Source of the DNA: Paludibacteraceae bacterium
GTDB lineage: Bacteria; Bacteroidota; Bacteroidia; Bacteroidales; Paludibacteraceae
Length of the DNA: 64,000 bases
NCBI GenBank assembly: GCA_016285885.1
Contig: JAEERP010000001.1
Span: 186,001 to 250,000, forward strand
Direction of reading: 5' to 3'
Part shown: positions 38,793-43,168 of the stretch, piece after piece
Layout of the letters: every line of letters begins with the position of its first letter
Position numbering within the stretch: the stretch's first letter is position 1
Program-made: the position numbers and the translations under genes
The notes under the pieces: model-generated
The model's database searches: none
Told to the model about the DNA's origin: nothing
Seen by the model: the letters and a program-made list of their open reading frames with translations, nothing else

Positions 38793-39662
38793 TTACATGC
38801 GTTGTTGGAAGAGTTTCATTAACGCCTTCACGTAGTCTTCGCCGGTGGAGATGGCGATGGAGTTCACTCCGCATTGGGAGAAGGTTTGTTTGATCTGCTC
38901 CTGTCGTTCTTTCCAGTTGCTGTGGTAGATGCTCCTGGCCTTTGCGTTGGAGGTGTCTATCCACATGTCTTTGCCGGTCTCCGCGTCCTTCATTTTGATC
39001 AAGCCCACAGAAGGCAGTTCGGTTTCCCTTTTGTCGTAGATGTGCAGTGCCACGACGTCATGTTTCCTGTTGGCGATGGTCAGTGACTGGCGGAAGTCTT
39101 TGCAGATGAAGTCAGATATGATGAAAGTTGTACATTTCTTCTTGATGGCGTTGGTCAGGTAGACCAATGCGCATTCTAGGTCGGTCTTGTTGCTTTCCGG
39201 CTCGAAACCGAGCAACTCGCGGATGATGTACAGCACGTGCTTCTTGCCTTTTTGGGGCGGAATGAATTTCTCTATTTTGTCGGAGAAGAAGATGACGCCG
39301 ATCTTATCGTTGTTTTGGATGGCGGAGAAAGCTATGGTGGCGGCTAGTTCCGTCATCATCTCCCTCTTCTTCTGGACTTGTGTTCCGAAGTCTCCGCTGG
39401 CTGACACGTCGACGAGGAGCATCATGGTCATTTCACGCTCTTCCTCAAATACTTTGATGAAGGGTTTGTTGAAACGAGCGGTCACGTTCCAGTCGATGTT
39501 TCGGATGTCGTCGCCATATTGGTATTCGCGGACTTCCGAGAAGGTCATACCCCGACCCTTGAAGGCCGAGTGGTACTCTCCTGCGAAGATGTTCCGAGAA
39601 AGGCCTTTGGTCTTGATCTCTATCTTCCGAACCTTTTTTAGTATTTCGTTTGTGTCTTGCAT
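38793..39662 (-). CDS. DUF58 (VWA-like) protein
   Basis: A 289-residue cytoplasmic protein. The DUF58 signature is clear: VREYQYGDDIRNIDWNVTAR (about 44-63), followed by a VWA fold with a MIDAS-like Asp85-x-Ser87-x-Ser89 (DVSAS). It has no membrane helix. DUF58 genes usually sit next to moxR, and the pair is thought to work as ATPase and adaptor. It starts 31 bases after the moxR stop and ends 13 bases before the next gene. Confidence 0.9.
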   Translation of the reverse strand: MQDTNEILKKVRKIEIKTKGLSRNIFAGEYHSAFKGRGMTFSEVREYQYGDDIRNIDWNVTARFNKPFIKVFEEEREMTMMLLVDVSASGDFGTQVQKKREMMTELAATIAFSAIQNNDKIGVIFFSDKIEKFIPPQKGKKHVLYIIRELLGFEPESNKTDLECALVYLTNAIKKKCTTFIISDFICKDFRQSLTIANRKHDVVALHIYDKRETELPSVGLIKMKDAETGKDMWIDTSNAKARSIYHSNWKERQEQIKQTFSQCGVNSIAISTGEDYVKALMKLFQQRM

Positions 39663-39693: not shown

Positions 39694-40689
39694 TCATGGT
39701 ACCTCTACCGCATTGATGATCTCGCTGACGATGTCCTCGCTGGTCACGTTGTTCGCTTCCGCCTCGTAGCTCAATCCGATACGGTGTCTCAGCACGTCGT
39801 GTGCGATGGCTCTCACATCTTCTGGGATAACGTAGCCTCTTCTCATCAGGAATGCGTATGTGCGGGCTGCCAACGCCAAGTTGATGGATGCACGTGGAGA
39901 ACCTCCGAAGGAGATCATGTCCTGCAAGTGTCCCAAGTTCTTCTCCTTCGGGAATCGGGTGGCGTGTACGATGTCTACGATGTAGCGCTCGATCTTTTCG
40001 TCCACATAGACTTCTTGAACGACTTTCCTTGCTTTGATGATGTCCTCTGGCTTGAGGATCGGCTCAATCTTCACCTCCTCACGTTGGATGTTCTGCTTGA
40101 TGATCTCCATCTCCTCTTTTGGCTTTGGATAGGTGATGTGCACCTTCAGCATGAAACGGTCCAACTGCGCCTCTGGCAATGGGTAGGTTCCCTCTTGCTC
40201 GATTGGGTTCTGGGTGGCTAACACGAGGAATGGGGACGGCAACTTGAAGGTCTCTTCTCCGATGGTTACCTGTCTCTCCTGCATGGCCTCCAATAGGGCA
40301 CTCTGCACTTTCGCAGGCGCACGGTTGATCTCATCGGCCAATACCAGGTTGGCGAAGACAGGTCCCTTCTTGATGCTGAATTCCTCTGTTTTCTGGCTAT
40401 AGATCATGGTTCCGATCACGTCGGCTGGCAAAAGGTCTGGCGTGAACTGGATTCTGTTGTATTTGGCTTCGATCAGTTGCCCTAATGTCTTAATGGCTAA
40501 TGTCTTGGCTAGTCCTGGTACGCCTTCCAAGAGGACGTGTCCATCTGCCAACAATCCGATCAATAATGATTCCACTAGGTGTTTTTGCCCGACGATGGAT
40601 TTGTTCATGCCCATCATCAAGAGATCTACGAACTCACTGTGCTTCTTGATTTTCTCATCTAGAGCCTTGAAGTCTACTGACTGATTCAT
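39694..40689 (-). CDS. moxR: MoxR-family AAA+ ATPase
   Basis: A 331-residue AAA+ ATPase. Walker A is GVPGLAKT (56-63), Walker B is LVLADEINRA (about 115-124), sensor 1 is VLATQNPIEQEGTYPLPEAQLDRF, and the C-terminal lid domain (about 225-331) is present. MoxR proteins act as chaperones that mature VWA-domain partners, here most likely BatA, BatB and the DUF58 protein. It is the first gene of the operon, with candidate -7 boxes at 40759-40774. Confidence 0.94.
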   Translation of the reverse strand: MNQSVDFKALDEKIKKHSEFVDLLMMGMNKSIVGQKHLVESLLIGLLADGHVLLEGVPGLAKTLAIKTLGQLIEAKYNRIQFTPDLLPADVIGTMIYSQKTEEFSIKKGPVFANLVLADEINRAPAKVQSALLEAMQERQVTIGEETFKLPSPFLVLATQNPIEQEGTYPLPEAQLDRFMLKVHITYPKPKEEMEIIKQNIQREEVKIEPILKPEDIIKARKVVQEVYVDEKIERYIVDIVHATRFPKEKNLGHLQDMISFGGSPRASINLALAARTYAFLMRRGYVIPEDVRAIAHDVLRHRIGLSYEAEANNVTSEDIVSEIINAVEVP

Positions 40690-40901: not shown

Positions 40902-42878
40902 TTAATTGAATAGTCTCAAATAACTCTCTTTGACGTCTTTGGCGGCATTGATGCACTCGTAGGAGTCTGGGTTGATGACAGATTCGTCCAGTTGCGGTAT
41001 CTTCACGACCGTTCCGGCGGATACGTTGTCTGGCCTACGGATCACATCTTTGTTGTAGAGATAGATGTAAACCCAAAAGTCTTTTACTCCGTCGTAGTGC
41101 TTACGCGACAGGGATGCGAGCGTCTGACCGTTTCTGATGGTGTCTATCGCTGGTTCTCCCGTGACCTCAAAATTGATTTTCGGATATTCTTTCTTGATGA
41201 ATTTCTTCAAGCCCTCTTCGAACCAATCCCAGTTCTGCTCTATCTCGACAACTTCAGGGAATGCTTGGTCTGCTTGAGCCGCTTCGTACATGTCCTCTAT
41301 TTTCTCGTCGAAGTATTCATCCTCTGGCTTAACCACAGGTGTGGTGTCCTTCGGAATGAGGGTGTCTGTGTTTTGTTTCACAGGCGTGTTGACGAATAGA
41401 TGCGTGATCTTTGACTTGATCTCGTCGAGGCTGGTGGAGACTCCTTTGCTTCCCTTGAATGCGTAGAAGAGGCAGGCAAGGATGAGAAGGACTAATATGA
41501 TGATGACGATCAATAGATTTTTGTTCTTCTCCTTTTTCCTTTTCTTTGGACGACCTTTCTGCTTGATGTCGTTCACATTGGCAGTGTTGAGGGGCTCCGT
41601 TTTCTCCGTGGATTCTTTTCCTTGTGGCTCGCTTGCTCCCCCTGTTTCTGTGGTCGCCTCACTGTTGCCGGTTGGTGCCGTGTTTGGTGCCTCTGTTTGC
41701 TCTCCTGCAGAGGTGGTGGATGCTTCTACCTTCTCTGTCTGCTCTTTGCTCGGAACCTCTTGCTCTGTGGTCTGTTGGATCTCCTCGGTTGGGGTAGGAC
41801 CAACTGGAGCGCACTCCTCTGTTGCGGGAGGTGTGATGGTCGTCGCTTCTGGAGCCGCTTGCTCGCTTGTTCCCTGTGGAGTGGTGGCCTCTGGAACTGT
41901 AGTGTTCGGAACCTCACTCTTTTCCACGATTGGATCGTTAACGGTCGATGCTTGATCGTTTGCAGGGGCTGTGTACTGCGGTGTTTCCGTCACAGGGGCA
42001 GTGTATTGCGGTGTTTCCGTCACAGGGGCAGTGTATTGCGGTGTTTTCGTCACAGGGGCAGTGTACTGCGGTGTCTCCGTCACAGGGGCGGTGTATTGCG
42101 GTGTCTCTGCCACAGGCGCGGTGTACTGCGGTGTTTCCGTCACAGGGGCTGTGTACTGCGGTGCCTCTGTTGCTGGGGCTGTGTACTGCGGTGTCTCCGT
42201 CACAGGGGCAGTGTATTGCGGTGTTTCTGTCACAGGGGCGGTGTGCTGCGGTGTTTCCGTCACAGGGGCGGTGTACTGCGGTGTCTCCGTCACAGGGGCG
42301 GTGTATTGCGGTGTCTCTGCCACAGGTGCGGTGTACTGCAGTGTTTCCGTCACAGGGGCGGTGTACTGCGGTGTTTCCGTCACAGGGGCAGTGTACTGCG
42401 GTGTCTCCGTCACAGGGGCGGTGTACTGCGGTGTTTCCACAACCGGTGTGCTGTAGGGTTGCACAGGAGTGGATGCTATGTCATCGGTTGAGTTGGCGAT
42501 CTCATCAGCCTCCTCTTCATCCTCATCGTCCACAAAGGGCCCGTCTACAGGTCCGTCGCTTGGGAGAATATAGGTTTCGAGGTCTTCGAACGGCTTGTTG
42601 ACCGCCTCTTTGAGTTCTTTTTCGGGTGTGAATGTAATTTTTTTATGGGCAGGAATAATAACTGCGCTACCATCTGTCACGCTAACACTTTTTCTTTCTT
42701 CGATGGCGACAATCTTGAATGTGCCGATTCCTTTTACTTTTGCGATACCGTCTTTGGCGAGTGCCTCTTCCACTATTTCGGTGAGCGCTCGCAGGAACCC
42801 TTCGGAGAGTTTTTTAGATTGCCCGGAAATTGCGGATAGTTGTTCCGCCAAATCTTGTAGTGTGACTTTGTTATTCAT
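40902..42878 (-). CDS. HU-domain protein with decapeptide repeats, membrane helix and LysM domain
   Basis: A 658-residue protein of unusual build. Residues 1-95 are an HU/IHF-type domain (VTLQDLAEQLSAISGQSKKL, then AKVKGIGTFKIV). An acidic linker (DDEDEEEADE) leads to sixteen 10-residue repeats of ETPQYTAPVT type (about 146-305), a Thr/Glu/Pro-rich spacer to about 440, a basic stop-transfer patch (KGRPKKRKKEKNKN), one membrane helix (454-474) and a periplasmic part with a LysM-like domain (about 579-629, IRNGQTLASLSRKHYDG...AGTVVKIPQ). The charge pattern puts HU inside and LysM outside. It could link the nucleoid to peptidoglycan; this is inference. It follows an ordinary HU gene. Confidence 0.8.
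   Translation of the reverse strand: MNNKVTLQDLAEQLSAISGQSKKLSEGFLRALTEIVEEALAKDGIAKVKGIGTFKIVAIEERKSVSVTDGSAVIIPAHKKITFTPEKELKEAVNKPFEDLETYILPSDGPVDGPFVDDEDEEEADEIANSTDDIASTPVQPYSTPVVETPQYTAPVTETPQYTAPVTETPQYTAPVTETLQYTAPVAETPQYTAPVTETPQYTAPVTETPQHTAPVTETPQYTAPVTETPQYTAPATEAPQYTAPVTETPQYTAPVAETPQYTAPVTETPQYTAPVTKTPQYTAPVTETPQYTAPVTETPQYTAPANDQASTVNDPIVEKSEVPNTTVPEATTPQGTSEQAAPEATTITPPATEECAPVGPTPTEEIQQTTEQEVPSKEQTEKVEASTTSAGEQTEAPNTAPTGNSEATTETGGASEPQGKESTEKTEPLNTANVNDIKQKGRPKKRKKEKNKNLLIVIIILVLLILACLFYAFKGSKGVSTSLDEIKSKITHLFVNTPVKQNTDTLIPKDTTPVVKPEDEYFDEKIEDMYEAAQADQAFPEVVEIEQNWDWFEEGLKKFIKKEYPKINFEVTGEPAIDTIRNGQTLASLSRKHYDGVKDFWVYIYLYNKDVIRRPDNVSAGTVVKIPQLDESVINPDSYECINAAKDVKESYLRLFN
41971..42450 (-). 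repeat. 30-bp minisatellite, 16 copies
   Basis: Sixteen tandem 30-bp units coding for ETPQYTAPVT-type decapeptides in the HU-LysM gene. Most differences are single substitutions, and length is always 30, so the frame is kept. The array is open in other frames too, giving false reading frames on the plus strand. Confidence 0.92.
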
Positions 42879-42892
42879 GATATGTTTAGGAA

Positions 42893-43168
42893 CTACTGAT
42901 TAAATTTCTCTTTTATTGTGCTGCTTGGTTTGAATGCGATGGATTGTTTCGGAGGAATCAGCATCCTCTTTTTGGTTGCGGGGTTGACGGATATACGTTC
43001 CGCTTTTCGTCTTGCCTCAAATGAACCGAATCCTTGTAGCGATACTACATTGTTGGCAAGTAGTTCTTTCTTTAATGCTTCGGCAAAGCCTCTGAATAGC
43101 GAGTCCGAAGTCGCAGCGTCGATTTGTAGCCGTGCTTTTATTTCTGCTATGATTTCTTTTGTATTCAC
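42893..43168 (-). CDS. HU-family DNA-binding protein
   Basis: A 91-residue HU/IHF-family protein with the standard layout: helical dimer part (MNTKEIIAEIKARLQIDAAT), the loop VVSLQGFGSFEARRKAERIS, the DNA-binding arm NPATKKRMLIPPKQSIAFKP with its basic residues and Pro tip, and the C-terminal helix. Nucleoid-associated proteins of this type bend and compact DNA. It lies 14 bases upstream of the HU-LysM gene and is likely co-transcribed with it, so the two HU domains could form mixed dimers (inference). Confidence 0.93.
   Translation of the reverse strand: MNTKEIIAEIKARLQIDAATSDSLFRGFAEALKKELLANNVVSLQGFGSFEARRKAERISVNPATKKRMLIPPKQSIAFKPSSTIKEKFNQ

Follow-up and report, generated by a model that had tools for sequence, protein, structure and literature searches.

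A paired HU and HU–LysM gene module in Bacteroidales: a candidate heterodimeric HU held at the cell envelope

How the nucleoid is held relative to the cell envelope is known in few systems. Burroughs et al. are said to have described, in 2017, bacterial HU-CCDC81 proteins that combine two HU domains with a membrane helix and a SPOR domain. Within the Bacteroidetes, the passages of PMC5683647 that deal with the HU_bacL clade describe HU proteins whose C-termini are long, averaging 238 residues, charged and rich in Glu, and whose N-termini are longer by 1–4 residues. HubP and FimV are polar landmark proteins; in the portions of PMC8789113 and PMC12918733 that describe them, they combine a periplasmic LysM domain with a single transmembrane helix and an extended acidic cytoplasmic region in which the repeats vary, and HubP influences chromosome placement through ParA1. 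Here we describe a locus that shares features with each of these, found in a 64,000-nucleotide stretch (the window) from Paludibacteraceae bacterium (GCA_016285885.1, contig JAEERP010000001.1, positions 186,001 to 250,000). Two adjacent genes encode a small HU protein, HU1, and a larger protein, the anchor, in which a second HU domain, HU2, is joined through a linker and a predicted inner-membrane helix to a LysM-like domain.

Both genes lie on the minus strand. HU1 (42893..43168) has 91 amino acids, a GTG start, Pro63 and basic arm positions, and matches PF00216 at E 2e-22; the anchor (40902..42878, 658 amino acids) begins 14 nucleotides downstream. Its residues 1–95 (42594..42878) form the HU2 domain, which matches PF00216 at E 5.7e-16 over residues 6–94, and the two scores, 79.7 bits for HU1 and 59.0 for HU2, are both above the curated cut-off of 22.4. 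An HU2-specific extension past the last HU helix (residues 94–105, 42564..42599), recognized from a column table of 194 HU2 sequences, leads into a Pro/Thr-rich linker with a net charge of −46 that is predicted to be cytoplasmic (residues 106–439, 41562..42563) and contains a tandem repeat of 15.9 copies of a 30-bp unit, encoding decapeptides (41963..42438). There follow a basic patch apparent in the sequence (residues 440–453, 41520..41561) and the predicted inner-membrane helix (residues 454–474, 41457..41519; hydropathy 3.43), whose best 19-residue window begins at residue 454 and whose flanks carry net charges of +8 (N-terminal) and +1 (C-terminal). The LysM-like domain, predicted to be periplasmic, occupies residues 576–629 (40992..41153), and the C-terminal tail beyond it (40905..40991) is conserved in alignments of relatives.

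With moderate confidence, we propose that HU1 and HU2 are the unequal halves of one HU dimer and that HU2 anchors DNA to the inner membrane and the wall. Soluble HU1 would contribute a DNA-gripping, DNA-bending arm with a proline at its tip, while HU2 would complete the dimer with a reduced arm and also provide the anchor itself: a flexible acidic cytoplasmic linker, a single helix through the inner membrane and, in the periplasm, a LysM domain holding the wall. DNA on the dimer would thereby be held at the inner membrane and, via LysM, at the peptidoglycan. What the sequences themselves show is a pair of genes, HU domains with unequal arm residues, a helix with biased flanking charge and a domain of LysM type. 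The heterodimer and the N-in/C-out orientation draw support from comparison, and we infer DNA binding, peptidoglycan binding, tethering and a use in, for example, nucleoid placement or segregation.

The arrangement is shared by many relatives, the closest named ones being titled Paludibacteraceae and coming mostly from rumen and gut. With residues 450–658 as query, 54 of 81 near genomes gave a match; 60 loci around the matches were fetched and the window was added to the counts. An HU domain and a LysM tail share one open reading frame in 52 loci, window included, and a script finds an HU gene directly upstream of the anchor in 51 of these; in the remaining one, L060, the HU frame overlaps an over-extended anchor start. 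A wider scan gave 349 loci, many overlapping, of which 291 hold the pair, reduced to 194 pairs once identical ends were removed. The HU1 and anchor frames overlap in 143 of the 194 (by 8 nucleotides in 73, by 4 in 49, by 11 in 17 and by other lengths in 4), and the rest are separated by 1–96 nucleotides. The other 58 loci comprise 24 short LysM frames, 16 longer LysM frames in which no HU was seen, 5 of them cut at the 5' end, and 18 anchors for which no separate HU1 was found. Nine of these 18 have fewer than 250 nucleotides upstream; the other nine are six HU1–HU2 fusions, L060 and L153 with over-extended starts, and L345.

HU1 and the anchor are therefore a conserved two-gene module: because 52 loci and 194 sequence-unique pairs have their parts in this order, chance is excluded, and the two-gene arrangement with its HU domains, linker repeats, basic patch, helix and LysM-like domain is confirmed as real. 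An earlier note on this DNA, made from the letters alone, had read the anchor frame in just this order, with 16 decapeptides, and had taken residues 1–95 for HU; the PF00216 scores, the 15.9 copies and the hydropathy bear this out, as does, for the LysM-like domain, the profile of relatives more than the window protein. The distance of 14 bases that it gave to the upstream HU gene also stands, but its description of that gene as ordinary does not, given a conserved partner in 194 pairs.

A search for this domain order across Bacteroidota, as the note had suggested, finds it well beyond the window's family. Within that family, 234 of 250 genomes contain a match to the LysM profile at E 1e-14, as do 156 of 160 among the better ones; these are counts of profile matches, the loci having been read for part of them. 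An even sample of the order contains the profile in 74 of 247 genomes at E 0.001 and in 45 at E 1e-14. Loci were viewed for 42 of these 45 (those of G104, G195 and G271 were left unread), and in 41 the frame with the LysM tail also matches an HU profile, weakly so in f83; in the 42nd, G171, the locus is cut short and no HU was seen. By a tally of the loci read, 17 of the order's families have HU and LysM in one frame: f1, f3, f12, f20, f22, f26, f29, f31, f58, f65, f75, f83, f84, f87, f99, f102 and f103. In a sample of the phylum the profile occurs in 105 of 198 genomes at E 0.001, and the 29 best loci besides the window's (L205–L233) divide into 8 HU–LysM pairs and 21 without HU. All of these pairs come from f135, one family of another class, in which 19 loci were read and HU1 lies directly upstream in every one, with gaps of −20 to +2.

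The predicted topology is likewise shared by most of the pairs. Across the 194 anchors the best 19-residue window has a median hydropathy of 2.6 and reaches at least 1.6 in 193; L062 alone shows a second helix candidate. Of the 194, 165 have more lysine and arginine before the helix than after it and 13 have fewer, and net charge is biased toward the N-terminal side in 154 proteins against 29. This bias predicts that HU lies inside and LysM outside, so that the N-in/C-out orientation implied by the earlier note is supported by comparison. By the cut used, the linker ranges from 0 to 448 amino acids with a median of 143, and all but one of the 194 linkers (193) are net acidic. The decapeptide unit does not share this conservation: in the six nearest relatives (L035–L040) the repeat units are 36, 108, 78/39, 81/54/27 and 78 bp, with none in L038. 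The linker repeat is thus a fast-changing spacer, and the Pro/Thr decapeptide is not its conserved part. On the opposite strand a 289-residue open frame runs over the repeat (41622–42491, plus strand), which we read as a by-product of the repeated unit and not a gene.

The two HU domains belong to one Pfam family, PF00216 being matched at E 0.01 by 43 of 43 HU1 and 43 of 43 HU2 relatives, and yet they are two different subunits. At arm-tip position 63 of the 194 pairs, HU1 has Pro in 97%, and HU2 has Val in 77%, Ile in 12% and Pro in 10%. Lysine or arginine occurs in HU1 at positions 53 (88%), 54 (75%), 55 (96%), 58 (87%), 68 (84%), 74 (98%), 80 (84%) and 86 (97%); the corresponding values for HU2 are 9, 9, 1, 96, 7, 3, 4 and 78%, with basic residues also retained at 43 (86%) and 76 (96%). 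The window's HU1 has an Asn-Pro arm tip and a basic arm, consistent with HU1 being the predicted DNA-gripping subunit. The median net charge of HU1 is +3 and that of the HU2 domain 0 (+8 and +2 in the window). The HU2 extension carries the motif N-x-P-[FY]-A-H-L-E, with N in 98%, P in 87% and F or Y in 83% of the 194 HU2 sequences. In a tree of 72 HU domains, 32 HU2 domains (three from f135) and three fusion second domains form one clan with support of 100/94. The other side holds HU1, the first domains of the fusions and two further HU from the genome; HU1 does not form a clan by itself, and many of the tree's forks are left open.

That the neighbouring HU might form mixed dimers with the anchor had been raised in the earlier note, and the case has since been strengthened: an HU1–HU2 heterodimer is favoured jointly by the fusions that occur naturally, by the coupling of the two genes, by arm residues that complement each other and by couplings between the chains, as far as sequences can speak to this. 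HU1, HU2, linker, helix and LysM are joined in one open reading frame in L094/L405 and L393/L404 (f31) and in L381/L403 (f20), and degraded-looking HU1–HU2 fusions occur in f83 (L377/L401, L379/L402 and L382). With Pfam the first HU is clear in L403, L404 and L405, PF00216 matches two stretches in L405 only, and L401 gives a match below threshold; the second HU in fusions other than L405 was identified by the HU2 profile and the tree. Charges at positions 13 and 34 were compared over 175 pairs, between the chains and within them. HU1-13 and HU2-34 are opposite in 127 pairs (7 of them reversed) and alike in 3, and HU1-34 and HU2-13 are opposite in 71 and alike in 11; within a chain, opposite and alike charges number 72 and 32 for HU1-13 and HU1-34, and 65 and 13 for HU2-13 and HU2-34. 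In the window, the sequences read Arg13 and Lys34 in HU1 and Glu at 34 in HU2.

Inter-subunit contact positions, taken from the part of PMC5093408 that reports them, were converted to Thermotoga maritima numbering and looked up in a coupling matrix of the 175 pairs. The highest, given as (HU1,HU2), are (34,13) at the 99.6th percentile, (14,27) at the 99.3rd, (13,34) at the 95th and (75,90) at the 84th. The nine published contact orderings together give p 0.005 (0.003–0.007 at two other pseudocounts), in a test defined after the coupling list containing 34–13 was known and giving p 0.016 without that pair. When the contact set was slid along the matrix, an equal or higher mean arose in 4 of 280 cases, and the same contact pairs taken inside HU1 or inside HU2 lie at the 7th to 65th percentile. 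Re-pairing HU1 among neighbours lowers the strong couplings from 28 to 0–2 in 25 runs, a result not counted here because re-pairing breaks shared ancestry too. The symmetry of the inter-chain matrix is very weak (rho 0.06).

Several observations weigh against the proposed tether, and they are best considered with the alternatives to which they lend themselves. Some bear on the LysM-like domain. Pfam LysM (PF01476) has no match at E 0.01 in the window protein, and the NCBIfam LysM model NF008399 on residues 576–629 gives E 7.5e-4 with 19.9 bits, well below its cut-off of 134. The profile of 46 relatives does match a solved LysM protein, Kbp, at E 1.7e-10, with phage tail LysM proteins next, although only 6 of the 46 reach Pfam LysM at E 0.01; the assignment leans on the relatives more than on the window protein itself. 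Kbp, the nearest solved LysM, is a potassium-binding protein. These results allow for a ligand other than peptidoglycan, such as potassium or a protein, which would leave a membrane-linked HU with no hold on the wall. We consider this rather unlikely, since the same LysM subtype also closes HU-less frames that look exported, 9 of the 11 listed starting by eye with a signal-peptide-like stretch (in L168 counted only from an inner Met), and one of them, L150 (2549–4222), has OmpA and beta-barrel domains ahead of the LysM subtype; moreover, the periplasmic LysM of FimV, a protein of comparable layout, binds peptidoglycan according to the relevant part of PMC12918733.

Some further occurrences of the subtype may be recorded here. 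HU-less, probably exported proteins that end in it are found at L150:2549-4222, L053, L076, L077, L078, L091 and L159. The anchor C-terminus of L118 and L120 has two consecutive LysM-profile matches. A 5.5-kb record from human faeces titled 'Bacteriophage sp.' (MT838247.1:1284-1535) shows 39% identity to the C-terminal query over 37% of its length.

The condition of HU2 itself raises a second difficulty. The domain is nearly neutral and most of its arm bases are missing, and the extent of HU degradation in f83 makes DNA binding doubtful in that family. HU2 could instead be a membrane-held sink or regulator of HU1 that limits its DNA binding or senses the state of the envelope via LysM, as a subunit lacking the proline and most arm bases, and a family that keeps LysM while its HU parts decay, might suggest. 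We judge this unlikely, as a pure sink would have no need of the residues that HU2 has kept, namely R58, present in 99% of the rows without a gap there, and the lysines at 76 and 86.

The coupling data also include less favourable values: (90,75) at the 82nd percentile, (27,14) at the 81st, (46,33) at the 61st, (33,46) at the 48th and (29,29) at the 25th are unremarkable. Over the whole matrix, strong couplings number 28 of 7569 between HU1 and HU2 against 24 of 14442 for HU1–LysM and HU2–LysM together (p 0.003), but this contrast with the LysM control is gone at pseudocount 0.3 (37 vs 62, p 0.30); it depends on settings and is given little weight. L345, with RimO directly upstream of the anchor and no HU1, is a further point on the same side. 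That HU1 and HU2 might each be homodimeric and merely share an operon, as would suit the homodimers that the text of PMC5683647 ascribes to most bacteria, is improbable in view of the natural fusions and of published inter-subunit pairs that couple between chains and not within them, and it would make Arg13 and Lys34 of the window's HU1 face each other.

If HU1 and HU2 do form a DNA-holding heterodimer at the wall, a direct DNA-to-wall link becomes testable in Bacteroidota through a conserved two-gene module, and the neutral, mostly proline-less arms of long-tailed Bacteroidetes HU are explained as the anchor halves of a pair. The wider reading, that an IHF-like heterodimeric HU serves as a dedicated chromosome–wall tether in many Bacteroidales families and in one family of another class, acts in nucleoid positioning or segregation and is distinct from HU-CCDC81/SPOR, we put forward more tentatively, as a possibility somewhat short of an even balance.

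The genes around the pair are partly conserved. Of 118 loci that extend 1300 nucleotides or more upstream, 69 have RimO there, named from its TLGCSKN motif, and the protein ahead of it in several loci we take to be FtsY. On the downstream side, MoxR follows in the same orientation in 36 of the 48 loci that extend 1500 nucleotides or more. In the window, a nitroreductase and a DsbD-like gene lie upstream of the pair; downstream are a MoxR-type AAA ATPase gene (39694..40689, minus strand; PF07726, PF01882) and, after it, a DUF58 gene (38793–39662). L401, L403, L405, L409 and L414 show the order RimO – (HU1) – anchor, and in some of them the order is flanked by what are presumably an FtsY-like gene upstream and MoxR-DUF58-Bat-like genes downstream.

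Searches of an open-access library brought up no description of the HU1/HU2-LysM module. In the portion of a Bacteroides thetaiotaomicron paper that names them, an HU gene and a LysM gene stand in separate table rows only, and the main text of a study of Porphyromonas gingivalis essential genes has no LysM, DNA-binding protein HU, RimO or MiaB. The nearest published description found is that of the HU_bacL clade, which likely overlaps with HU2, a comparison made with its text description only. The words 'membrane', 'LysM' and 'peptidoglycan' have 0 occurrences in the text of PMC5683647 consulted, and the passages describing HU_bacL contain no pairing with a second HU, unlike HU2.

The membrane-linked HU proteins with SPOR domains that the earlier note mentioned proved to be separate from the anchor, although the window's genome holds one of that type too. 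HU-CCDC81/SPOR proteins belong to different HU families (PF18174 and PF18175) and have SPOR in place of LysM. The window's HU1 scores 18.5 bits with PF18174 against a cut-off of 26, HU2 matches neither family at E 0.01, and SPOR has no match in the anchor or, at E 0.001, in the window's genome. That genome nevertheless encodes an HU-CCDC81 protein (L395:1522-2493, contig C7; PF18174 62.6 bits, PF18175 33.0 against a cut-off of 35), in which a hydrophobic stretch and a tail that is SPOR-like by eye can be seen. The two are separate, coexisting proteins. In the order sample, 222 of 247 genomes match PF18174, among them that of the window; the idea that the HU-LysM and HU-CCDC81/SPOR systems replace each other was rejected, as 38 of the 45 order genomes with a strong LysM tail have it. 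An equation of HU1 with CCDC81 domain 1 and of HU2 with domain 2 is not supported by the relatives at E 0.01, where PF18175 is matched by 19 of 43 HU1 and 13 of 43 HU2, and PF18174 by 6 of 43 and 1 of 43.

Among LysM proteins, Kbp (YgaU) is the closest solved one by sequence to the family profile, but it has no HU domain and the match is confined to the LysM part. HubP and FimV, compared by layout only, have their parts in the reverse order and a TPR/FimV domain where the anchor has HU, and no TPR/FimV Pfam match was found in the window's anchor at E 0.01; these two show that a landmark bound to the wall can be built from a periplasmic LysM, a helix and acidic repeats, and by analogy the anchor could work like HubP without being HubP. 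Escherichia coli HU alpha-beta and IHF offer the parallel for the dimer itself. As in IHF, two unequal subunits are proposed here, and both match PF00216; the module departs from HU alpha-beta and IHF in that one of its subunits is a membrane protein ending in LysM and, in most relatives, no longer has the proline at the arm tip.

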